A DNA stretch of 33,996 bases, taken from positions 1 through 33,996 of the IMG/VR virus record IMGVR_UViG_3300017782_000091; one strand, given 5' to 3'. The notes under the pieces were generated by a model that saw nothing but the letters and a program-made list of their open reading frames with translations, did not search any database and was not told the DNA's origin. Of the stretch, positions 1-33,985 are shown piece by piece. This DNA is from a virus. The position numbers and the translations under genes were made by a program. Within the stretch, counting starts at the first letter, position 1. Each line of letters starts with the position of its first letter.

Positions 1-2
1 AG

Positions 3-140
3 TATGGGATCGCTGAACGAGGTGACATTATAATCTTTGAAACAGATGACGAGGAGGATGAGTGCGAAGTAGAGGATTCAGCTGAGTACCCAACGCATTA
101 CATCCTTGGTTCACAATTAAGAAAGGATTCAGATGAGTGA
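3..140 (+). CDS. 3' end of an unknown early gene, cut by the window edge
   Basis: Frame 3 is open from the first bases to a TGA at 138-140, giving about 45 codons of a protein whose start lies outside the window. The visible part has a run of acidic residues (ETDDEEDECEVED) about 15 residues in, then a short mixed tail. The stop overlaps the ATG of the next gene at 133 by 8 bases, the tight coupling usual for real genes in this genome. I do not recognise the family. Small acidic early proteins in T7-like phages are often host-takeover or anti-defence proteins, but nothing in this fragment proves that role. Confidence 0.5.
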   Translation, partial: YGIAERGDIIIFETDDEEDECEVEDSAEYPTHYILGSQLRKDSDE

Positions 141-438
141 GGAAGGATACATAGAGCATAAGAAATTCCTATTGGAATTACCTAACGGTAAGTACCTGTG
201 TCATAGTGGTAGCAAGCAAGCTATCATATATGATAAAGAGCGTGACCAAGATCAGCTACGGTTTGATCTTGAAATGACCAACGGTCATCTCGTAGCTTTG
301 GGCAGACCTCAGTGGCACGAGATATACAATGGTATGAAATATACCAACAACACAGATAACTTTGATTATATGGCTGAGCTGTACGAGGAGTTCATTGGTA
401 TGTCATCCAAGGGTAGAGAGGTAGGCAGGGAGAGTTAA
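133..438 (+). CDS. small early protein of unknown function
   Basis: A 101-residue protein with mixed charge and no membrane segment or recognised motif. The start at 133 has a good Shine-Dalgarno-like AAAGGA (about 123-127) and overlaps the stop of the upstream partial gene. It lies in the pre-polymerase position where T7-like phages keep host-takeover genes, and it is followed by an intrinsic terminator at 469-499, so it probably ends an early transcript. The gene body contains several perfect hairpins (164-179, 222-235, 247-271, 274-288, 330-346), a property shared with the small genes at 32.9-34.0 kb and not with the core genes I sampled. Function unknown. Confidence 0.65.
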   Translation: MSEEGYIEHKKFLLELPNGKYLCHSGSKQAIIYDKERDQDQLRFDLEMTNGHLVALGRPQWHEIYNGMKYTNNTDNFDYMAELYEEFIGMSSKGREVGRES

Positions 439-468
439 GACTTTCTAAGATATATATAATGTGTTCAA

Positions 469-499
469 GGGGCATCCTCGTAAGGGGATGTCCTTTTTT
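469..499 (+). terminator. Rho-independent terminator
   Basis: An 8-bp stem pairs GGGCATCC (470-477) with GGATGTCC (486-493), with one G-T wobble and an 8-nt loop. Six T residues follow at 494-499. It sits 30 bases after the stop of the 133-438 gene and before the gene group leading into RNA polymerase, so it should end the upstream early transcript. Confidence 0.8.
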
Positions 500-704
500 G
501 TGGCTAGTTTACTTGACTATCCCCTCTTTGTATGGGCAGTATATATTATAATAATATATTATATACTTTCTATAAGGGTACTTATAGATAAGATCTATAT
601 AACCTTTATAACTATAATAGTTATAGAACTTATTTATAATATTATATAAATAAAGATAGGTGTTCTACTTGACAGGTGTGTACCTATATGTATGCTCGCA
701 ACCT
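500..704 (+). other. AT-rich intergenic region with clustered hairpins
   Basis: No convincing gene. The stretch from 540 is almost pure A/T and contains abutting or overlapping perfect inverted repeats: 570-587 (7-bp arms, loop GGTA), 583-599 (7-bp arms, loop AAG), 607-625 (9-bp arms around one base) and the 12-bp palindrome at 635-646. The region separates the terminator at 469-499 from the gene group containing RNA polymerase, so it should hold the promoter or processing site for that group. The 9-mer TATAAGGGT at 571-579 recurs at 32895-32903, upstream of another gene group. Confidence 0.6.
669..696 (+). promoter_or_regulatory. possible sigma70-type promoter
   Basis: A perfect TTGACA at 669-674 is followed after 16 bases by TATGCT at 691-696 (4 of 6 to the -10 consensus). 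It would drive the small genes at 705 and 898 and then RNA polymerase, the place where host polymerase must act first. The predicted transcription start is almost at the ATG at 705, giving a very short leader, which is a reason for caution. Confidence 0.35.
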
Positions 705-917
705 ATGAGCAACTCACATAACGCAGAACCTCTGAAGAGGACACCTAGTGATACACTAGAAGCAGTTGAGATTCGTATCAACCTATTGAGAGACGAGTCT
801 CGCTTAGTATCTATCAAGATAGATGCACTGATGGACAGAAGAAAAGATATTAACACTGAAATCAAACGACTAAAAGAAGGAGCGAAGCAGATCAAAGATG
901 TCATTGCCAACGATTGA
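705..917 (+). CDS. small coiled-coil early protein, unknown function
   Basis: From ATG 705 the product is 70 residues. The frame is open upstream to a GTG at 660, but that extension would be translated from the promoter-like region, so 705 is preferred. After a short polar start, residues from about 15 to the end form a highly charged pattern with regularly spaced Leu and Ile (EAVEIRINLL, KIDALMDRR, EIKRLKEG), typical of a helical hairpin or coiled coil. It overlaps the next gene by 20 bases and probably belongs to the RNA polymerase transcript. Hairpins at 745-759 and 809-824 lie inside it. Family not recognised. Confidence 0.6.
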   Translation: MSNSHNAEPLKRTPSDTLEAVEIRINLLRDESRLVSIKIDALMDRRKDINTEIKRLKEGAKQIKDVIAND

Positions 918-1092
918 AACTATTGTAGATGAATTACAGCACGCAGTTAATTTACTTGAGGAGGTCAAACCACACAGGGATTGTAAAGATCCACAGATAC
1001 ATAGGGGTGGGTTGATGTTCGTCAAGGACGCATTATCTAAATTAAAACTTTATGCAGAACCTCGGAAAGCTCCTACCCAGTCAGAATCCTAA
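898..1092 (+). CDS. small early protein of unknown function
   Basis: A 64-residue protein starting MSLPTIETIVDELQ. The N-terminal half is amphipathic and helical (VDELQHAVNLLEEV), followed by a short polar segment with two His and one Cys, and a Lys/Leu-rich helix. Its start overlaps the preceding gene by 20 bases and its end overlaps the RNA polymerase start by 41 bases, which argues for translational coupling. AAGGAG occurs about 15 bases upstream of the ATG, rather far for an ideal ribosome binding site. I do not recognise the family. Confidence 0.55.
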   Translation: MSLPTIETIVDELQHAVNLLEEVKPHRDCKDPQIHRGGLMFVKDALSKLKLYAEPRKAPTQSES

Positions 1093-3469
1093 GATAGAAA
1101 AGGAGATGCTTGAGAAGGGTGTCACCAAAACGAGAAGACAGATTGAGTCAGCTCGTGATCGTGACTCTGAATCAGAGACCAAGTATGGTCAGCGTCTCCT
1201 TCGTGAAGGGATTCCAGAACTTGTGAAAGGAATCAAGGAATGGTTCAAGGAACAAGAGAAAGCTCCCATTGCAGGGAACGCTTACTATAAACTGAGGGAT
1301 ATAGATCCCAAGGTATCAGCCTTCATCGCATTGAAGAGTGTGCTTGATTGCTTGATGCAGAAGAGACCATTAGCATCCTCAGCCATACGACTCGGAGCAT
1401 TGATAGAAGATGAGATGCATTTCGGTGCATTCTCGGAACATCCTCAGTGGTCACAGATACTACGAGGTGCGAAGAAGCGACCGAACTATAAGAAGAGACG
1501 GTACTATTTAATACACTCAGAGAAAGGTGAAGCTAGTAAAGGTGAGGCAGATGAGTGGGAGAAGTGGGGTACAAGAATCAAACTACATATAGGTACTGTA
1601 TTGATTACACTCATCAAAGATTACACAGGTCTGTTAGATTTTGTAATGATACAGACAGACAAGCGTGGTCCAGCTCGCTTCATCCAAGCTACCAAGAAGA
1701 CACAGCAATGGATAGAAGATATGATTGCACACAACGAGATGCTTGAACCTTTTTGGATGCCACTCAAGGACTATCCAAAGCAATGGACAGAAAAGTGGAG
1801 TGGTGGCTACGATGTAGATAATGGATTGCCACCTATGCCTTTGATTAAATCTAGGAACAAAGCGTTCCTTCGTATCAACGAAGAACCTATGACTGATGTA
1901 ATGTCAGCCATGAACAGCCTACAGAATACACCTTGGAGGATTAACAACAAGGTACTAGGTACATTGAAAACATTTTGGGAAGAGGGTATACCTATTGGTA
2001 GTCTACCATCTAGGGAGGATGAAGTGTTACCTCCATTCCCAAAGGATGAGACAGATGAGATAGCTAAGACTATATGGAAACGCAAGGCGGCACAAATCTA
2101 TGACTTCAATGCATCCACTAAAAGTCGTAGGCTATTAGTATTAAATACTATTGGTCTAGCTCAGAAGTATAACAACACTAGATTTTATTTACCCCACCAA
2201 TGTGACTTCAGAGGTAGAGCATATGCTGTACCTGCTTATGTGAATCATATGGGAGCAGACTTTGCTAAGGCATTACTGCATTTTGATAGAGGGGTACGAG
2301 CTACCACAGATGATCAACTGAAATGGTTATTCATACATGGAGCTAACTGCTTTGGGTTCAAAGGAACTTATACACAGCGGATAGATTGGGTAATAGAGAA
2401 CACTAAACAAATAGACCAACTAGCTACTAACCCACTATCCGCTTTAGATTTTTTAAATGAAGCTGATGAAACATTCCAATTCCTTGCCTTTGCATACGAG
2501 TTTCAACGAATGCATAAAGAAGGGAGTAAGTTCTCTACTCATCTACCTTGTCAGATGGATGCTAGTAACAACGGACTACAGATTCTTGGAATGCTTACTC
2601 GTGATGAATCGTCTTGCATCGCTACTAATGTAGCACCTACTAATTACCCAGAAGATATCTATGGTATCGTAGCTGAGAAAGCTTGTGAATATCTACGAGC
2701 TGAGGCAGGTAGTAATCCATTTGCAAACAAGTGGCTTACCTTTGGGGTAAACAGATCAGCATCCAAGAGACCAACGATGACTCAGCCATATGGTTCTACA
2801 CCACACAGTGCTAGATCATATGTAAACCAATGGTATCTAGATAAGGTACGAGGTGGGGCTGATGATCCATTTGATGAGAGTAATCGTTTCCAAGCAACAG
2901 CTTACCTATCCTCAAAGATATGGGAGGCAATCAATCAAGTGGTAGGTAAACCAAGAGAAGCTATGGCTTGGCTACAGAACACAGCTAGAACTCTAGCAAA
3001 ATTTGATAGACCATTCTATTGGGTAAGTCCAAGTGGCTTCCCTTGTAACCAAGCGTATCAGAAATGGGAACAGAAAAGTATCCGCACCAAGATAGGTGAG
3101 CAGGTACTACGAGTAAAGTTCCGAGAAGATTTAAATAAGATGTCACCGAAACGCCAAGCACAGGGTAGCTCACCTAATTTTGTTCATTCCATGGATGCTA
3201 GTTGTTTACATTTGACTGTGAATAAGTGTGAACAACTAGGCATCAAGGACTTTGCAATGGTACACGACAGCTACGGTACACACAGTGTGAACTGTGATAC
3301 AATGGCAAACCAAATACGACAAACACTTGTTGAAATTTTTGAGCAAGATCAATTAGCTATCCTAAAAAATAATCTTGAGGAGGCTAATGACTTGACACTA
3401 CCACCGTTACCGTGCTATGGTAACTTTAATATACAAGATATAAAAAATTCAAAATACATATTCAGTTAA
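1052..3469 (+). CDS. phage single-subunit DNA-dependent RNA polymerase (T7 gp1-like)
   Basis: An 805-residue enzyme of the T7/mitochondrial RNA polymerase family that should transcribe the middle and late genes from phage promoters. All catalytic landmarks are present in order: DFRGRAYAVP near residue 385; the metal-binding Asp in QMDASNNGLQ at about D503 (T7 D537); Lys and Tyr in SKRPTMTQPYG at about K572 and Y580 with the same 8-residue spacing as T7 K631/Y639; and the second Asp in MVHDSYGTH at about D739 (T7 D812). The C terminus (NIQDIKNSKYIFS) matches the T7 carboxyl end that reaches the active site. T7 RNAP is 883 aa, so this is a compact version. The alternative ATG at 1106 lies directly against AAGGAG with no spacer, so 1052 is kept tentatively. 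Confidence 0.97.
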   Translation: MQNLGKLLPSQNPKIEKEMLEKGVTKTRRQIESARDRDSESETKYGQRLLREGIPELVKGIKEWFKEQEKAPIAGNAYYKLRDIDPKVSAFIALKSVLDCLMQKRPLASSAIRLGALIEDEMHFGAFSEHPQWSQILRGAKKRPNYKKRRYYLIHSEKGEASKGEADEWEKWGTRIKLHIGTVLITLIKDYTGLLDFVMIQTDKRGPARFIQATKKTQQWIEDMIAHNEMLEPFWMPLKDYPKQWTEKWSGGYDVDNGLPPMPLIKSRNKAFLRINEEPMTDVMSAMNSLQNTPWRINNKVLGTLKTFWEEGIPIGSLPSREDEVLPPFPKDETDEIAKTIWKRKAAQIYDFNASTKSRRLLVLNTIGLAQKYNNTRFYLPHQCDFRGRAYAVPAYVNHMGADFAKALLHFDRGVRATTDDQLKWLFIHGANCFGFKGTYTQRIDWVIENTKQIDQLATNPLSALDFLNEADETFQFLAFAYEFQRMHKEGSKFSTHLPCQMDASNNGLQILGMLTRDESSCIATNVAPTNYPEDIYGIVAEKACEYLRAEAGSNPFANKWLTFGVNRSASKRPTMTQPYGSTPHSARSYVNQWYLDKVRGGADDPFDESNRFQATAYLSSKIWEAINQVVGKPREAMAWLQNTARTLAKFDRPFYWVSPSGFPCNQAYQKWEQKSIRTKIGEQVLRVKFREDLNKMSPKRQAQGSSPNFVHSMDASCLHLTVNKCEQLGIKDFAMVHDSYGTHSVNCDTMANQIRQTLVEIFEQDQLAILKNNLEEANDLTLPPLPCYGNFNIQDIKNSKYIFS

Positions 3470-3474
3470 ATATT

Positions 3475-4062
3475 ATGAGCAAAAATAAATCAATAGTAAC
3501 ACCGAAAGGTAAAGCGAGATACCCATATGTTAATACACCGAACACTACATTTGATTCGGATGGGGTCTATACCTGTGATATAGTTGTATCAGAGGAAGAA
3601 GGTAAAGCGTTTGAAGCAACGCTTAAAGAAACATACGAACAAGCCTACGACAGAGAGTGTCAGATCAAGGGGAAGAAGTTAAAGAAAGCTCCTTCGTTTC
3701 CAATCTCTGTTGATGAGGAAGGCGATTACATTATCAAAACCAAACAACCTGCTAAGCGTACTGCTAAGGGTGGAGAAGTATACGAGTTCTCTATCAAGTT
3801 GTTTGATGCTAAAGGTAATATGATTGATGCTAATGTAGGTGGAGGTAGTATTGTAAAATGTGCTGTTCAACCTCGTTGCTGGTTTGCACCATCAATGGGA
3901 TTTGGTATGACACTAACACTCAAAGCTGTACAAGTAATAGAACTTGTGGAGTTCGGAGGTGGAGGTAATGCCAACAGCTTTGGATTTGAAGACGAAGATG
4001 GTTTCGTAAGTGGTGGTGAATCACTGAAGGAATCGTTTGATGATGTCAGCGGAGACTTTTAG
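3475..4062 (+). CDS. single-stranded DNA-binding protein (T7 gp2.5-like)
   Basis: A 195-residue protein in the gp2.5 position between RNA polymerase and endonuclease I (T7 gp2.5 is 232 aa). The body has the alternating hydrophobic and polar strands expected of an OB-fold, with aromatic residues that could stack on DNA. The last 40 residues are glycine-rich, then acidic, and the chain ends in GDF. In T7 the acidic tail with terminal Phe contacts gp4 and gp5, and this tail looks equivalent. There is no Shine-Dalgarno; the start follows the RNA polymerase stop through TAAATATTATG. Assignment rests on position, size and the tail rather than on a diagnostic catalytic motif. Confidence 0.85.
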   Translation: MSKNKSIVTPKGKARYPYVNTPNTTFDSDGVYTCDIVVSEEEGKAFEATLKETYEQAYDRECQIKGKKLKKAPSFPISVDEEGDYIIKTKQPAKRTAKGGEVYEFSIKLFDAKGNMIDANVGGGSIVKCAVQPRCWFAPSMGFGMTLTLKAVQVIELVEFGGGGNANSFGFEDEDGFVSGGESLKESFDDVSGDF

Positions 4063-15147: not shown

Positions 15148-17781
15148 ATGGCTGAGAAAAATGATCTAACCTTCGTGGATTCAGTAAACATCTGTTTATC
15201 TGCAATTGGAGAACAACCTACAACTGGAGATACAAGCGGTAAAGTAACTGTTAATACAGATACAAATCGTATTGTACAAATCACTTCAGATTTACTTAAA
15301 GAAGTTACTATTGATGTTGAAAATAGAGGATGGGATTTCCAAGCTACAACTGGTACAGTAGAAGGTATAGATATAACTACCAATAAATATGATTGGAACG
15401 GTCTTCACACTGTCTCTTTCAAACGCTATGTTACCATCCGTGCTGCTAGAATATTACAAGCTAGATATGTTACGGATGAGAATTTACACACTTTCAGTGC
15501 AGCTGAAGAAGCGTTCTCTTACGCTAACTTACAACAAGTAGATGCCACAGCTAGACTAGCAGCTCAATTTAAACTTCCAGATAGTATTACTAATTTAGGA
15601 ATAGAGAAGACTGACTTCCTTGCTGGGACTGTAGAAGAAAAACTAGGTTATCTAAGAATGGCTACAGAGGTAAATAATACTCAGTTAGTCAACGCACAGA
15701 AGTTACGAGTAGATGAAGAAACGGATTTACTTCAACAACAATTTTTAACAGAACAAAAAGAAACAGAAAAACGATCTGCTGAATCTGGACTAACAAATCA
15801 ACAACAAGGGTTGATTGGAGAACAGACTATAACAGAAGCTGCTAATCGTTCAAAACTGAATGCAGAAAAAAGTTTAATAGATCAACAAAGAGAAACAGAA
15901 GCTAAGCAAACTGACAAAGTAGAAGCTGAAACGGATTTAATTGCTGAGCAAGAAGACTTAATCGTCCAACAACAAGCGACAGAAGTACAGGAAACAGAAA
16001 AACGCAGTGCCGAAACAGGTTTAGTCCACGGACAACTAGGACTAGTAGGTGAGCAAACGATAACAGAAACCGTAAATCGTACTAAAGTAGACTCGGAGCG
16101 GAAGAGAATTGACGAGGAGACTGATCTTTTACAAGAACAGCATAATACGCAAATAGAGGAAACAGCAAAACGCAGTGCTGAGACAGGTTTAGTCCAAGGA
16201 CAACTAGGGTTAGTTAGTGAACAAACTTTATCTGAAATTAAAAATAGAGAGTTAACAGACGCACAGAAAGTTAAAACTAATACTGAATCAGAGTTAATAG
16301 AAGATCAGAAAACTAAACTAGCAGCTGACACAGGATTAGTAGCTCAACAATCTACCCTCGTAAGCGAGCAAGTTACATCTGAAGCTATAAACCGTGCAAA
16401 AGTTACCAAAGAAACAGAGGTGCTTCTAGAGCAACAACAATTAATAGACGAGCAAGGAAAGACTCAACAACAAGAAACAATTAAAAAAGCTGCGGAAACA
16501 GGACTCGTAGCACAACAATCTACACTGACAGTTGAGCAAGCTAATAAAACATCTAAAGAAAGTCTTTTAGTAGCATCACAAAAGAGTTTAGTAGACGCAC
16601 AAAAGAATACAGAGTTACAGGAAAAGGCTAAACGAGAAGCTGAAGTTAAACAAGTAGAATCACAAACTCTACAAGTAGATGCTCAGACAGGTCTTGCTGG
16701 TCAACAAACAATTTTAACAAGTGAACAAGCTCAAACACAAGCTACGCAACGATCGTTGTTATCAGCTCAAGCTGCTCAAATAACAGCACAAAGGAATACA
16801 GAGACTCGTACTCAAAGAAAACTAGAAGAAGAAACAGATTTACTTGAAGCCCAAGAGTCACGCATAACAGGTGAGACAGCGTATATGATTACCGCTGAGA
16901 ATGATTATATAGCTATTCTTAAAGGTACAGGTATACTAACTAGTAATGTCTTCTATGATCAACGATTCAATCCTCTTTATAATAATAAAAAACATAGCTT
17001 TAGAATGATGGGTATTAAAGAAGCAGACTTTAATGCAGCACCAGCTTACAAAAAACTTTCAATGTTAGAAGAAGCGGATGCGTTTAGTCAATCTCAACTT
17101 ACTGGTACATCTAGTGTAAGTATACCTTATACTAGAACTGGAGGCTACGGTCACTGGGTATTTGAAATGTATCAAAAATTAGGATATGGTAAGGCGGAAA
17201 ATTCAAATGATGACACAATCACTAGATGGTTGTATGATAGTTATTTAAACAATCTATACACTTTAGGTGAAAGAAAATTATCATGGACTCGTAGAACTAT
17301 TAAACTAACTGCTGATAGCAACGGTAGATTAAAAGCACCATTAAGTAGTGGTTTCGTAATAGGAGGCGGTAGAACATATTCTAGCTATACTTACTATAGA
17401 ATTAACGGTAAGCAGTTAGGATACGAACCTCATACAGAAGGTGGTGAAGATTATAATATTCTTGTAGATTTAGATCTAGATGAAAACCAATCAACTTCCT
17501 TTAACGGTGAATACACGGTAGAAGTCGGTCAGACAATGGATTCACATCAAAGTAATGGTATTGCTCCGTTGTTTGAAAACTGGGTACAAACTTATACTTT
17601 ACTACAGTTTGTTGAGACATATCCTGTCAATGCTACAGAAGTAGACAAGTTTAGAAAAGAAGAAGCTCGTTTCAGATCCTTGATGGAACAAGAAGAAGCA
17701 GAGCTTGGACAGTATAATATTTTAGATTCTACTGATGTAGCACAACGAGTAGGACATAATCGTAATTACAATCTTTTATAA
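15148..17781 (+). CDS. tail tubular protein A (T7 gp11-like) with coiled-coil and extra domain; possible built-in fibre
   Basis: An 877-residue protein where T7 gp11 has 196. Residues 1-170 resemble gp11: FVDSVNICLSAIGEQP, VENRGWDF, and FKRYVTIRAARILQARY. Residues about 175-590 are a long charged Gln/Glu/Leu coiled coil with repeats of the type KRSAETGLVxGQLGLVxEQT starting at 211, 288, 344, 393, 449 and 512. Residues about 595-800 look globular and aromatic-rich (TRTGGYGHWVFEMYQKLGYG). The last 70 (WVQTYTLLQFVETYP to GQYNILDSTD) resemble the gp11 C-terminal helices and end. T7 gp11 is the dodecameric adaptor between portal, nozzle and fibres. Here the insert or duplication resembles a fibre shaft with a tip. 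That fibre role is inference. Confidence 0.85.
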   Translation: MAEKNDLTFVDSVNICLSAIGEQPTTGDTSGKVTVNTDTNRIVQITSDLLKEVTIDVENRGWDFQATTGTVEGIDITTNKYDWNGLHTVSFKRYVTIRAARILQARYVTDENLHTFSAAEEAFSYANLQQVDATARLAAQFKLPDSITNLGIEKTDFLAGTVEEKLGYLRMATEVNNTQLVNAQKLRVDEETDLLQQQFLTEQKETEKRSAESGLTNQQQGLIGEQTITEAANRSKLNAEKSLIDQQRETEAKQTDKVEAETDLIAEQEDLIVQQQATEVQETEKRSAETGLVHGQLGLVGEQTITETVNRTKVDSERKRIDEETDLLQEQHNTQIEETAKRSAETGLVQGQLGLVSEQTLSEIKNRELTDAQKVKTNTESELIEDQKTKLAADTGLVAQQSTLVSEQVTSEAINRAKVTKETEVLLEQQQLIDEQGKTQQQETIKKAAETGLVAQQSTLTVEQANKTSKESLLVASQKSLVDAQKNTELQEKAKREAEVKQVESQTLQVDAQTGLAGQQTILTSEQAQTQATQRSLLSAQAAQITAQRNTETRTQRKLEEETDLLEAQESRITGETAYMITAENDYIAILKGTGILTSNVFYDQRFNPLYNNKKHSFRMMGIKEADFNAAPAYKKLSMLEEADAFSQSQLTGTSSVSIPYTRTGGYGHWVFEMYQKLGYGKAENSNDDTITRWLYDSYLNNLYTLGERKLSWTRRTIKLTADSNGRLKAPLSSGFVIGGGRTYSSYTYYRINGKQLGYEPHTEGGEDYNILVDLDLDENQSTSFNGEYTVEVGQTMDSHQSNGIAPLFENWVQTYTLLQFVETYPVNATEVDKFRKEEARFRSLMEQEEAELGQYNILDSTDVAQRVGHNRNYNLL
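15673..16917 (+). repeat. degenerate heptad-register repeat inside the gp11-like gene
   Basis: The segment encodes about 415 residues of coiled coil. The repeat marker (A-[EDQ]-[ST]-G-L) recurs at residues 211, 288, 344, 393, 449 and 512. The distances are 77, 56, 49, 56 and 63 residues, all multiples of seven, so repeats have been gained or lost only in whole heptads. Confidence 0.85.
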
Positions 17782-30321: not shown

Positions 30322-30538
30322 AGCACTGCTAGAAGAACTAGCTTCGCTTACTATCCAAGAGTTGATAGCAACTATCAAATCTGGAGAAGCGTCCCCAGCT
30401 GTACTAAATGTTGCTAGGCAAATGCTTAAAGACAACCAAGTTACCACAGCGGTCAACGAAGAAACACCGTTGAAGGAGTTAGTACACTTATTACCTTTTG
30501 ATGAAGACGGAGATACCAGAAAAGCTCAAGGACTTTAG
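30302..30538 (+). CDS. small terminase subunit (T7 gp18-like, DNA maturase A)
   Basis: A 78-residue protein (T7 gp18 is 89). SLTIQELIATIKSGEASPAVLNVARQ followed by MLKDNQVT is characteristic of small terminase subunits of T7-like phages, and the acidic end with LLPFDEDGD is also common. It recognises concatemeric phage DNA and regulates the large subunit. It overlaps the holin-like gene by 20 bases and the large terminase by 38 bases from the preferred ATG. Confidence 0.9.
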   Translation: MANSTNKALLEELASLTIQELIATIKSGEASPAVLNVARQMLKDNQVTTAVNEETPLKELVHLLPFDEDGDTRKAQGL

Positions 30539-32174
30539 AAACTTCCTGTACCTTATCTGGCACTCCCTTGAGCAGATAAAAAGAGATCCTACACCAATCC
30601 AGTATGATATTGCAGACTTTATGCAACATGGTCCAAAGAGGACTGTTATTCAAGGATTTCGTGGTGTGGGTAAGTCTTGGATCTGTTCTGCCTTTGTTGT
30701 TCACCAACTACTTCTAGACTCTTCTAAGAACATTCTAGTTGTTTCTGCATCCAAAACTCGTGCTGATGATTTCTCCACTTTTACTCTTAGACTACTTCAT
30801 GAAATCCCTATTCTCAAGCATCTTAAACCACAAGCTGATCAAAGGTTTTCAAAAGTCAGTTTTGATGTTGGACCTGCACCTGCGTCTCATGCACCTTCGG
30901 TTAAGTCTTTGGGGGTTACCTCCCAACTTACAGGAAGCCGTGCTGATATCATCATTGCAGACGATATTGAAGTCCCAACAAACTCCGCCACGCAACAAAT
31001 GCGAGACAAACTCGGAGAACAAATAAAAGAATTTGATGCTATTTTAAAGCCCCTAGAAGCCTCTAAGATTCTCTTTCTAGGCACACCGCAGTGTGAGGAC
31101 TCAGTGTACACGAAACTCACTACTAGAGGGTATTCTGCGAAGATATGGACATCTGAGAAGGTTAACCAAAAGAAAGCAGAGCTTACTTACAATAATACAC
31201 TGTCTGATCTTTGTATATCAGACGATGAAGAAGGACAATCCTCAGAGCCTTCTAGATTTACAGACTTTGATTTAAATGAAAGAAAAGTGTCCTATGGTTC
31301 TGTAGGATATGCACTACAGTTCATGCTTAATCCTAGCTTGTCTGATGTGGATAGATTCCCACTCAAACTAGGTAACCTTATAGTACAATCTGTTGACCCA
31401 GATGTAGCTCCAGAGAAACTAGTGTGGGCTAAGACACCAGATTTAGAATGGGATGCACTACCCAATGTAGGACTCCGTGGAGATCGTTACTATAGACCTA
31501 TGAAGGTTATAGGAGATATGATTCCGTACACTGGATCTGTACTCTCTATTGACCCTTCTGGTAGAGGTTCTGATGAGACTGGGTATGCTGTAGTAAAGAT
31601 GCTGAATGGTACTCTATATGTTCCAGAAGCTGGTGGTCTCAAAGGAGGCTACGATGAAGAGACTTTAAATGAACTAGTTAACATAGCTAAACGCAACAAG
31701 GTTAACAAAGTGATTACTGAGTCTAACTTTGGTGACGGTATGTTCAACCAACTAATAACGCCCATATTTAGACGAGAATACCCTGTAGCGTTAGAAGAGG
31801 TACGACACCACACCCAGAAGGAAAAACGCATTATAGATACCTTAGAACCCCTTCTAGCTACCCACAGATTAGTTATAGACCCTACGGTCATAGAGAACGA
31901 CTTTAAAACAGCTCAATCTTACTCTGCTGAAAAACATATTCACTATATGTTATTCCATCAGTTGACGAGGTTGACCAACAGGAGAGGTAGTATCCGTCAC
32001 GATGACCGCCTTGATGCCCTGTCAATCGCTTGTAACTATTGGGTAGACCAAATGGCACAAGATGCTGACAGACAAATCAAGGAGAGGAGACGAGATTTAG
32101 TGGATGAAGGTCTCCATAAATTTCAAGACGAATACTATAAGAACAAAAGACCTAACGCTTTAAAATGGATTTAA
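30501..32174 (+). CDS. large terminase subunit (T7 gp19-like, DNA maturase B)
   Basis: About 557 residues (T7 gp19 is 586). The ATPase domain has Walker A GFRGVGKSW (G52-W60) and Walker B ADIIIADDIE near 148-157, with LVVSASKTRAD and SVKSLGVTSQLTGSRAD very close to T7. The nuclease domain has SIDPSGRGSDETGYA (D351), TESNFGDGMF and HDDRLDAL. It powers packaging and cuts concatemers. The frame extends three bases upstream to a TTG, but ATG 30501 is preferred. Confidence 0.97.
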   Translation: MKTEIPEKLKDFRNFLYLIWHSLEQIKRDPTPIQYDIADFMQHGPKRTVIQGFRGVGKSWICSAFVVHQLLLDSSKNILVVSASKTRADDFSTFTLRLLHEIPILKHLKPQADQRFSKVSFDVGPAPASHAPSVKSLGVTSQLTGSRADIIIADDIEVPTNSATQQMRDKLGEQIKEFDAILKPLEASKILFLGTPQCEDSVYTKLTTRGYSAKIWTSEKVNQKKAELTYNNTLSDLCISDDEEGQSSEPSRFTDFDLNERKVSYGSVGYALQFMLNPSLSDVDRFPLKLGNLIVQSVDPDVAPEKLVWAKTPDLEWDALPNVGLRGDRYYRPMKVIGDMIPYTGSVLSIDPSGRGSDETGYAVVKMLNGTLYVPEAGGLKGGYDEETLNELVNIAKRNKVNKVITESNFGDGMFNQLITPIFRREYPVALEEVRHHTQKEKRIIDTLEPLLATHRLVIDPTVIENDFKTAQSYSAEKHIHYMLFHQLTRLTNRRGSIRHDDRLDALSIACNYWVDQMAQDADRQIKERRRDLVDEGLHKFQDEYYKNKRPNALKWI

Positions 32175-32585: not shown

Positions 32586-32679
32586 AAGCTTCGTAGAAGC
32601 TAGTAAAAGCCCCCAAAAAGCTTATAAATAAGCTTCTTTTTAACCTTCTATGAAGGTTATTTAAGCTTCAAAGAAGCTT
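32586..32679. repeat. cluster of AAGCTT-centred inverted repeats
   Basis: AAGCTT occurs five times in 94 bases (32586, 32618, 32630, 32663 and 32674), always as an arm or arm end of a hairpin. A fourth hairpin here (32641-32659, TAACCTTC loop TAT) is a near relative. The hairpins look like diverged copies of one unit of the form AAGCTTC-3 nt-GAAGCTT. Confidence 0.75.
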
Positions 32680-32696
32680 GGACAGCGACTTTTATG

Positions 32697-32722
32697 CATC
32701 TGTTTGTAAACAGATGTTTTTT
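32697..32722 (+). terminator. terminator-like hairpin with T-run
   Basis: A 9-bp perfect stem (CATCTGTTT with AAACAGATG, central GT) at 32697-32716 followed directly by TTTTTT at 32717-32722. It has the shape of an intrinsic terminator but the stem is AT-rich. It may be just one more member of the hairpin array. Confidence 0.45.
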
Positions 32723-32789
32723 GAAATCTTACTAAAGTAAGATCAGCAAATCTTATAGAATGGTACAACCATTATATAAAGTCGGCTCT

Positions 32790-32845
32790 AATTATCGTCA
32801 AGGCTCTCCTGTGCATTATGCCTAGGGAGAGATCGCACGATAATT
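32790..32845 (+). ncRNA. candidate structured RNA element
   Basis: Outer 9-bp arms AATTATCGT (32790-32798) and ACGATAATT (32837-32845) enclose a second 6-bp stem, CTCTCC (32804-32809) with GGAGAG (32826-32831), and a small apical GCA/TGC. AGGC/GCCT offers an alternative inner pairing. It is the only multi-stem element in the region and could be a processed RNA leader or RNase III site. This is inferred from pairing alone. Confidence 0.35.
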
Positions 32846-32876
32846 CAACAACTATCCCTAAAGGGATAAAACGGAT

Positions 32877-32903
32877 TTGACAAAAGGTTTATAATATAAG
32901 GGT
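32877..32903 (+). promoter_or_regulatory. promoter-like sequence before the right-end gene group
   Basis: TTGACA at 32877-32882 is followed by TATAAT at 32890-32895, but the 7-base spacing is too short for a normal sigma70 promoter. The overlapping 9-mer TATAAGGGT (32895-32903) also occurs at 571-579, upstream of the genes leading to RNA polymerase. It may be a phage or host promoter element. It lies 30 bases before the ATG at 32934. Confidence 0.3.
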
Positions 32904-32933
32904 CGGCAATTCAGCCTCAAACCAAAAATCATT

Positions 32934-33266
32934 ATGTCTTATATCAAAAATCTTAAATTAAATCCTAATGAATGTTTCCCAAATAATAAGGAAATACCTA
33001 GTAGGATTTGGAGTAAACTCTCAACCGTTATCTTTGATAACGAAGAGGAGTTAAACTACGAAGACCTCGGTTGGGGTTCTTGTAAAGAACCTAAGAGAAA
33101 CCATTATAAAATAATGGTTTTGTTAGGGACTGATTTGGACAACTACGATGACGAAAAGAACATCGTTCAAATCTATAGATTTCAGAGAGTGGGTGACAAA
33201 TTGTTTACAATTTCAAATCCAAAAAAGGAATATAATATATTCCCTGCTGAACTTTCTCTAGTCTAA
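32934..33266 (+). CDS. small early protein of unknown function
   Basis: A 110-residue protein with mixed charge, starting MSYIKNLKLNPNECFPNNKE. A hydrophobic strand pattern occurs near residues 60-105 (NHYKIMVLLGTDL, IVQIYRFQRVGDKLFTI). There is no membrane segment or known motif. It is the first gene after the non-coding hairpin region and begins at CATTATG without a Shine-Dalgarno, a start context shared with the next two genes. The coding sequence contains at least six perfect hairpins, the longest (33098-33120) with 10-bp arms. Function unknown; position suggests an early host-takeover gene. Confidence 0.65.
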   Translation: MSYIKNLKLNPNECFPNNKEIPSRIWSKLSTVIFDNEEELNYEDLGWGSCKEPKRNHYKIMVLLGTDLDNYDDEKNIVQIYRFQRVGDKLFTISNPKKEYNIFPAELSLV

Positions 33267-33305
33267 TAATCACACACAAGAATATAATTCTCATACACAA
33301 TTATT

Positions 33306-33761
33306 ATGATATCTCATCTCATTCATACCATTCGCCCTGTCAAAGACAGGATTATCGTAGCGAATAAACCTGTAAAGGTTTATTTTAATCTCCACAAAAA
33401 GTGCTTTTCCATTCAACAGAATGGATTAGTGATGGGTCATACTGATGCCATAGCTCTTCGTGATGTTACCTTTAAGGTAAGCCAAGCAGGAAGAAACAGA
33501 GTTCTAAAAGAGCGTAAGAAGAATGTACACGCTTTTGTCACAGGCTACCTAGACTGCTTCGCTGATGAAAGATTCTACGATGTAAAGATTGTATACAATC
33601 CTTACAAATACGATTCCTTCAGACTCTACCGTAAAGACAGTATAACTGTCCATAACATTGGGGCTGTTCTCTTACGAAGTAAGGATGGACGGTCTCAAAT
33701 CCTAGCAGATAGGGATGCACATACAGATGGTCTGTGCAGAATCATCAAAGACAAAAGTTAA
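33306..33761 (+). CDS. conserved-looking early protein of unknown function
   Basis: A 151-residue basic protein. The middle, VKVYFNLHKKCFSIQQNGLV, then VTFKVSQAGRNRVLKERKKN and VHAFVTGYLDC, looks familiar from small proteins of marine phages, where a strand-rich N-terminal domain ends in KNVHAFV-G, but I cannot attach a function. The C-terminal half is aromatic and basic (YNPYKYDSFRLYRKDS). The ATG lies at the end of an inverted repeat (33264-33270 with 33300-33306) that could hide the start in mRNA structure. Seven or more perfect hairpins lie in the gene, several codon-aligned. Confidence 0.7.
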   Translation: MISHLIHTIRPVKDRIIVANKPVKVYFNLHKKCFSIQQNGLVMGHTDAIALRDVTFKVSQAGRNRVLKERKKNVHAFVTGYLDCFADERFYDVKIVYNPYKYDSFRLYRKDSITVHNIGAVLLRSKDGRSQILADRDAHTDGLCRIIKDKS

Positions 33762-33772
33762 GCAAAAACATT

Positions 33773-33985
33773 ATGCAAAAATCAGCACTACAAAAGCCCT
33801 CTATAAGAGTAGAGAAAAAAGAAAACTACGGTAATACTTTGTATTACCCTGTGGAAGTAAACCAACAGACAGCCTTAGGTATCTTGACCAAAGGTCAAAA
33901 GACGCTCACCGAAAGCCAATGCAAAGCATTGATGCAACTCGGTTTTAGAATAGATGTAATCCAACACAACCCATTTACAAAGTAA
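33773..33985 (+). CDS. small early protein of unknown function
   Basis: A 70-residue protein from ATG 33773, preceded by CATT like its neighbours. An upstream GTG at 33734 in the same frame would overlap the previous gene and is less likely. The sequence NYGNTLYYPVEVNQQTALGI, then ILTKGQKTLTESQCKALMQLG, suggests a compact strand-helix fold. Hairpins at 33830-33848, 33884-33898 and 33917-33931 are inside it, two of them exactly in codon register. Family not recognised. Confidence 0.6.
   Translation: MQKSALQKPSIRVEKKENYGNTLYYPVEVNQQTALGILTKGQKTLTESQCKALMQLGFRIDVIQHNPFTK

Follow-up and report, generated by a model that had tools for sequence, protein, structure and literature searches.

A dense array of sequence-diverse perfect mini-hairpins in the early region of a T7-like phage

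The DNA analyzed here, called the window below, is the whole 33,996-base stretch of IMG/VR record IMGVR_UViG_3300017782_000091, a virus contig of a T7-like phage. The window encodes its own single-subunit RNA polymerase (RNAP), 32 to 36% identical to the RNAPs of Pelagibacter, Roseobacter and uncultured marine autographiviruses, together with a phrog_38 terminase, as is found in Autographiviridae-like (T7-like) phages, and replication and virion genes lie between the two. No near DNA match to the window was found in the phage collection. Beyond the terminase gene there are a non-coding block, a few separate elements and three early genes (Table 1). One of these genes belongs to the Phage_L5_gp82 family with a score of 106.5 bits (the Pfam cut-off is 27), and the other two, at 32934-33266 and 33773-33985, are orphans almost without relatives in homologue searches. 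In the near relative L189 the early genes that follow the array (GP88, a 325-aa protein and others) are joined to the first genes of the window and the RNAP gene; the two ends of the window thus correspond to a single early region whose middle is missing from the contig.

Two observations were made outside this region. The middle of the 877-aa ORF at 15148-17781 is a run of similar peptides, and at 15737-16237 a 102-nt direct repeat is present in three copies that are 65 to 78% alike. All 13 core genes checked (starts at 3475, 6008, 8056, 8555, 9992, 11511, 13607, 15148, 17781, 20674, 21161, 21682 and 24177) lack a Shine-Dalgarno-like sequence upstream of the start codon, a possible hint that the host initiates translation by a non-Shine-Dalgarno route.

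Table 1. Features of the early region and its borders in the window
Feature	Position	Strand	Evidence or remarks
Left end of the window (opposite side of this early region, as far as the RNAP gene); 10 more hairpins	1-1050	+	
Examples of left-end hairpins	222-235, 541-559, 569-588, 607-625, 809-824	+	
Single-subunit (T7-type) RNA polymerase gene	1052-3469	+	tblastn to Autographiviridae RNAPs; array stops here
Terminase large subunit gene (start 30498 or 30552)	30498-32174	+	phrog_38, E 8e-110; left border of the array
Non-coding block, 7 perfect hairpins	32587-32773	+	scan
Hairpins of the non-coding block	32587-32601, 32618-32635, 32641-32659, 32663-32679, 32697-32716, 32726-32743, 32759-32773	+	
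Hairpin with T tract, intrinsic-terminator-like	32696-32717	+	sole such array member on the + strand
Larger conserved branched RNA-like element between hairpins, stem ATTATCGT/ACGATAAT	32785-32850	+	
Hairpin TATCCCT-aa-AGGGATA, just 5' of the promoter-like element	32853-32868	+	TATCCC-ttt-GGGATA in L086
Conserved single-copy TTGACA-N7-TATAAT-ATAAGG	32877-32902	+	conserved in six sequences
Early gene, 110 aa, orphan, 6 hairpins	32934-33266	+	single relative (L175/L086), 92% identical
Hairpins of the 110-aa gene	33026-33042, 33075-33091, 33098-33120, 33169-33182, 33198-33213, 33227-33243	+	exhaustive scan
Early gene, 151 aa, Phage_L5_gp82 family (PF25735), 6 hairpins	33306-33761	+	E 1e-30
Hairpins of the 151-aa gene	33336-33350, 33363-33384, 33408-33425, 33466-33480, 33587-33600, 33636-33650	+	exhaustive scan
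Early gene, 70 aa, 3 hairpins (33830-33848, 33884-33898, 33917-33931)	33773-33985	+	scan

The window was scanned exhaustively for non-overlapping perfect inverted repeats with arms of at least 6 bases and loops of at most 5. The stretch 32587-33931 holds 23 such hairpins, with arms of at least 7 in 17 of them, at least 8 in 8 and at least 9 in 3. A preliminary description of this DNA had counted the same 23, about 17 of them with the longer arms, at coordinates that agree with the scan, and had put the chance expectation at 2 to 3, and below one for arms of at least 7. Dinucleotide-preserving shuffles of the same stretch gave 2.3 +- 1.5 hairpins (maximum 9 in 300 shuffles), with means of 0.6, 0.16 and 0.04 for arms of at least 7, 8 and 9. 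At the left end (1-1050) 10 hairpins were found vs 1.6 expected, an enrichment that is shared because both contig ends belong to one early region, incomplete here. The core (1051-32500) is mildly above its shuffles for arms of at least 6 (66 vs 44), with 17 vs 11.8 for arms of at least 7 and 2 vs 3.3 for arms of at least 8. The terminase gene (30552-32174) has no hairpin at all, and the interval 22.0-22.8 kb, earlier described as holding almost none, has one. The claim of a local density above both shuffled and core sequence therefore stands, with 23 hairpins vs 2.3 and a core at or near chance. Codon shuffling, a control that the same description had proposed, does not explain the excess in the three early genes either: they hold 6, 6 and 3 hairpins vs means of 0.8, 1.0 and 0.6 in synonymous-codon permutations, and the terminase, portal and RNAP genes remain in the range of their permutations, with 0, 2 and 6 vs means of 1.9, 2.2 and 3.2.

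Concerning their anatomy, the array hairpins have perfectly paired stems of 6-10 bp and loops mostly of 1-4 nt, a loop class that is sharply enriched in hairpin-rich phages, whereas loops of at least 5 nt hardly are. Three-nucleotide loops occur in 12 of the 23 array hairpins vs 4 of the 66 in the core. The loop is closed by a 5'-pyrimidine/3'-purine pair in 60 of 68 window-lineage hairpins (60:8), almost always so when the loop has 2-3 nt; the ratio is 27:29 in chance hairpins of hairpin-poor phages. Loop composition tracks the strand background, stem G+C is not above flank G+C in the window lineage, and median stem energies are about -5 kcal/mol as RNA and -3.7 kcal/mol as DNA. Among 6-bp stems with 3-4 nt loops in this lineage, perfect Watson-Crick stems number 62 vs 2.3 expected, while those with one G.T (1 vs 3.8), one A.C (5 vs 5.1) or another single mismatch (14 vs 16.6) lie at or below expectation, so that only perfect Watson-Crick stems are enriched. 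We looked for regular spacing and found gaps that are random or slightly clustered. A search of the stems for a hidden motif, such as an RNase or restriction site that pairing would protect, revealed no dominant k-mer beyond AGCTT, and an Rfam search of the array gave a sub-threshold chance match only. A copied repeat was rejected as the origin of the array, the arms differing from hairpin to hairpin with no direct-repeat family among them, in agreement with the earlier view of a shared architecture. Sequence-specific protein-binding dyads, also proposed before, are unlikely because no arm sequence or motif is shared.

The stems of the non-coding block are nearly invariant across relatives L083-L088, whereas loops and flanks vary. 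One hairpin of the block carries a paired indel, AAGTTAT/ATAACTT vs AAGCTTAT/ATAAGCTT, the latter with one base more in each arm. Formal covariation analysis of the block gave 95.7% of cells paired vs 23-49% for slid partners; 9 of 500 shuffles reached the covariation score, a weak signal because most pairs never vary. The branched element at 32785-32850 has a predicted fold of -22.1 kcal/mol (z -3.4) and contains GTCAAGGCTCT, invariant in six relatives; no Rfam family matched it. Judging from its sequence, the conserved element at 32877-32902 is a possible early promoter, though its spacing matches no sigma-70 promoter; a repeated phage promoter family of the form TTGACA-N7-TATAAT was rejected, as the window has one copy. 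Eight array hairpins lie upstream of this promoter-like element and may be outside the early mRNA. Two differences between relatives were observed within the block. At the equivalent of 32641-32679 L086 has a segment flanked by two neighbouring hairpins, both with AAGCTTCTTTGAAG, that L087 has lost, as if by recombination between the two hairpins, and at the equivalent of 32726-32743 the almost identical L084 and L085 differ by inversion of a 2-nt loop (aa/tt).

Six contigs with a terminase 90-91% identical to that of the window carry the array. One of them, L087, carries about 40 hairpins within 2.25 kb downstream of the terminase gene, in genes that partly differ from those of the window. 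Relatives with 77-79% identical terminases show moderate enrichment and the 64-68% group mostly little or none. A search with the gp82-like protein led to contigs of another, unrelated kind of phage, the HMO-2011 type (HMO-like phages). In three HMO-like contigs the hairpins are concentrated in 5-6 kb of small genes of early type and are scarce or absent in core genes, and the arrays start abruptly and then thin out along the early unit. In cultured HMO-2011 each 500 bp of 50-53 kb has 0-2 hairpins, followed by 4, 7, 5, 8, 3 and 4 from 53 kb on; its array starts sharply at 53.2 kb, where leftward genes give way to the rightward early operon, and has become faint by 3 kb. The cultured Roseobacter phages CRP-1 and CRP-345 show the same trend: counting arms of at least 6, CRP-1 has 14, 9, 5 and 6 hairpins in its first four kb, and CRP-345 has 11, 6 and 4. 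The array is weak or missing in CRP-3, CRP-9, HTVC033P, HTVC103P, AP013544, CRP-125, HTVC031P and T7. In HMO-2011 (NC_021864) we also observed one hairpin, AGTCCG-acag-CGGACT, five times (53877, 54807, 60, 1260 and 1926), mostly near gene ends and once with an inverted loop (ctgt).

A tie between the array and the gp82/GP88 genes was considered and rejected: bacterial contigs with GP88 have no hairpin arrays, nor do Bacillus BpsS-36 and Limnohabitans DC31, and the trait therefore does not travel with these genes. In GP88 genes, lineages with about 50% protein identity have some hairpins at the same positions but with different stems, as in CTTACT-ttc-AGTAAG vs GTAACT-ttc-AGTTAC. Other GP88-bearing phage contigs (L213, L214, L243, L244, L249 and L251) are hairpin-enriched too; L214 and L243 differ in stem composition and closing pairs, the stems of L243 having 70% G+C, and their enrichment may be a different phenomenon.

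Comparison of relatives, with gapped hairpins excluded, revealed stem differences at 1 of 196 positions (0.5%) between the window and L086, vs 58 of 599 (9.7%) in the flanks, and at 1 of 128 (0.8%) vs 87 of 766 (11.4%) between the left end and L189. Among HMO-like phages of 85-90% identity 69% of hairpins are intact and stems change at about 0.5-0.7 of the flank rate; deduplicated pairwise counts in which these stems appeared faster than background were discarded as a counting artefact, the stems being slower without deduplication. Judged from these alignments, the stems are under purifying selection. Where stems do change, paired substitutions and indels are found, the compensatory arm changes that the preliminary description had proposed to look for; examples are AATGGT/ACCATT to AACGGT/ACCGTT and TAGCTTC/GAAGCTA to AAGCTTC/GAAGCTT. 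Compensated pairs number 3 vs 0.1 and 8 vs 0.4 expected in the window lineage, and 27 vs 2.9, 146 vs 32 and 354 vs 128 in HMO-like phages, counts that reuse related sequences and ungapped hairpins only and hence give direction and size, not exact probabilities. An origin of the hairpins by insertion was rejected, alignment gaps being no commoner in hairpins than in control spans.

Chance, base composition, codon usage or an assembly artefact as the source of the array has a practically negligible probability. The A+T richness of the genome is all that speaks for it, whereas the observed counts exceed both dinucleotide shuffles and codon permutations; and since identical hairpins occur in independent metagenomes and arrays in cultured phage genomes, an artefact of assembly is ruled out. 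Template switching, in which quasi-palindrome correction would create perfect hairpins and maintain them without selection, had been listed among the earlier options and is disfavoured; we consider it very improbable. According to PMC8604942 and PMC8794818, this process homogenizes arms and inverts loops. Perfect stems are common to such quasi-palindromes and to the array, and inverted loops may be: the alignments suggest occasional loop inversion between relatives (aaa/ttt, aa/tt), such flips being few among many ordinary loop changes. However, since template switching uses one arm as the template for the other, the changes behind a newly gained hairpin should cluster in one arm, as in such quasi-palindromes; where a homologue lacks the hairpin the changes instead split binomially between the arms (19:40:23, 13:31:29:13 in the three-change cases, and 2:11:21:12:1), and one-arm clusters are absent. 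Unbiased conversion would also leave the stem substitution rate unchanged and should deplete near-hairpins with one mismatch. Yet window-lineage stems are more conserved than their flanks, changing several to 20 times more slowly, one-mismatch near-hairpins stay near chance level and are hardly depleted (20 vs 25.5 expected), and early regions alone are affected.

The remaining readings differ in the molecule on which selection would act. The best reading, to which we give a probability of roughly 0.45, is that the hairpins are selected local structure of the immediate-early mRNA. Of the options raised earlier, RNA structure is the best supported, by compensation, by the G.U excess in HMO-like phages, by low hairpin coverage at translation starts and by confinement to the early unit, each of them indirect. 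In HMO-like phages stems with one G.U form 85 independent clusters vs 39 with one A.C (expected ratio 1.11, P 0.0002), while the window lineage shows no such preference (6 G.U clusters vs 14 A.C). The sense strand folds slightly better than the antisense strand in early regions known to read rightward. Hairpin coverage at +0 to +19 of genes falls to 0.17 (0.03-0.41) of the average, family-weighted, a dip that is generic because long-loop inverted repeats show it equally. Against RNA stability alone stand the lack of G+C enrichment and of G.U preference in window-lineage stems, and the cut-off at 4-nt loops, which is not a thermodynamic optimum, counts against mRNA as well. Hairpins or cruciforms in the DNA itself, acting while early DNA is in single-stranded or supercoiled form (for example in genome entry, R-loops, lagging-strand synthesis or as sites of structure-specific proteins), are somewhat unlikely. 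They would accord with the restriction to perfect Watson-Crick stems without G.U tolerance in the window lineage, with the bias in closing pairs, with loops that match the strand background and with the position of the densest block, upstream of the promoter-like element and adjoining what is probably a genome end (the end position is deduced). The G.U excess over A.C in HMO-like phages, the start of the HMO-2011 array at the rightward early operon and the scarcity of hairpins at translation starts argue otherwise, and on evidence of moderate strength we take RNA to be likelier than DNA by about two to one. The main alternative at the RNA level, rated as distinctly unlikely, is that hairpins in nascent RNA pause, slow or attenuate the host RNA polymerase in a manner graded along the early operon. 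Density is indeed highest where the early unit begins and falls downstream, T is enriched just 3' of hairpins in HMO-like phages, and the sizes of stems and loops suit hairpins forming in the RNA exit channel; but a terminator T tract follows only 1 of 23 hairpins on the + strand (32696-32717) and 1 on the - strand, and hairpin spacing is not fixed.

Taken together, the extreme enrichment, the restriction to the early region, the stem conservation with compensated changes and the recurrence in unrelated phages show one selected feature, a closely packed series of compact stem-loops with perfect pairing in the phage's immediate-early region. If the selected object is the early mRNA, which host RNA polymerase would make before phage functions gain control, this mRNA would fold into a string of small local hairpins that leave translation starts mostly open. 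The benefit can be guessed at: the transcripts made first might persist longer in a hostile cell or come through it more safely, perhaps with less single-stranded RNA exposed to RNase E-type host endonucleases or to an RNA-sensing defence.

Several known systems resemble the array in part. In T7 the early mRNA carries RNase III sites and terminator hairpins, few and specific, and the likeness lies in hairpins in the early-region mRNA of a T7-like phage; the whole T7 genome, however, has 3 perfect hairpins with arms of at least 7, one of them in the first kb. The hairpin promoters of the N4 virion RNA polymerase have a 5-7 bp stem, a 3-nt loop and a conserved sequence, whereas stems and loops of the array are not shared, and the window encodes a T7-type RNAP. 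REP and Rickettsia palindromic elements, which lie partly inside genes, are copies of one sequence, unlike the array with its lack of a repeat family and of a dominant k-mer beyond AGCTT. Genome-scale ordered RNA structure (GORS) is pervasive selected structure across the coding RNA of RNA viruses and has been proposed to aid evasion of RNA sensing or decay by the host. Pervasive selected structure in coding nucleic acid is also found in the phage array, but GORS is a diffuse folding of RNA genomes, and the array is made up of separate, perfect hairpins with small loops that lie in a single transcription unit of a DNA phage. Structure is not genome-wide here, since the core genes are at chance for hairpins and weakly structured locally, and a literature search on GORS and bacteriophage found no such phage case. 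Nematomorph mitochondrial genes contain coding palindromes of up to 284 bp, that is, perfect inverted repeats in functional protein genes that are kept with the protein sequence (PMC6649704), as in the array; those repeats are far longer and mitochondrial, while the phage hairpins are many and short, lie in early genes only and show compensated changes. Hairpins, palindromes or inverted repeats are not mentioned in PMC9038755, on HMO-2011-type phages, and dense arrays of diverse mini-hairpins confined to the early unit of a DNA phage were not found in the open-licence papers searched, which is not proof of absence. There is a real chance that the array is categorically new.

It is possible, and we put it forward tentatively, that unrelated marine phages converged on sequence-diverse perfect mini-hairpin arrays in the immediate-early region, in coding and non-coding DNA alike, and that selection keeps these arrays as a general shield or means of control for the nucleic acid that is first active in the host, possibly against an unrecognised RNA- or DNA-targeting host defence. 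Phage early regions consist mostly of unknown genes and are the first thing that the host meets. A selected structural code in abundant marine phages, cultured ones among them, would lead to the testable question of which host process sees the first phage transcripts or DNA structure. Synonymous recoding of such early genes may destroy a function other than that of the protein, and hairpin density offers a computable marker for immediate-early units in uncultured phages.
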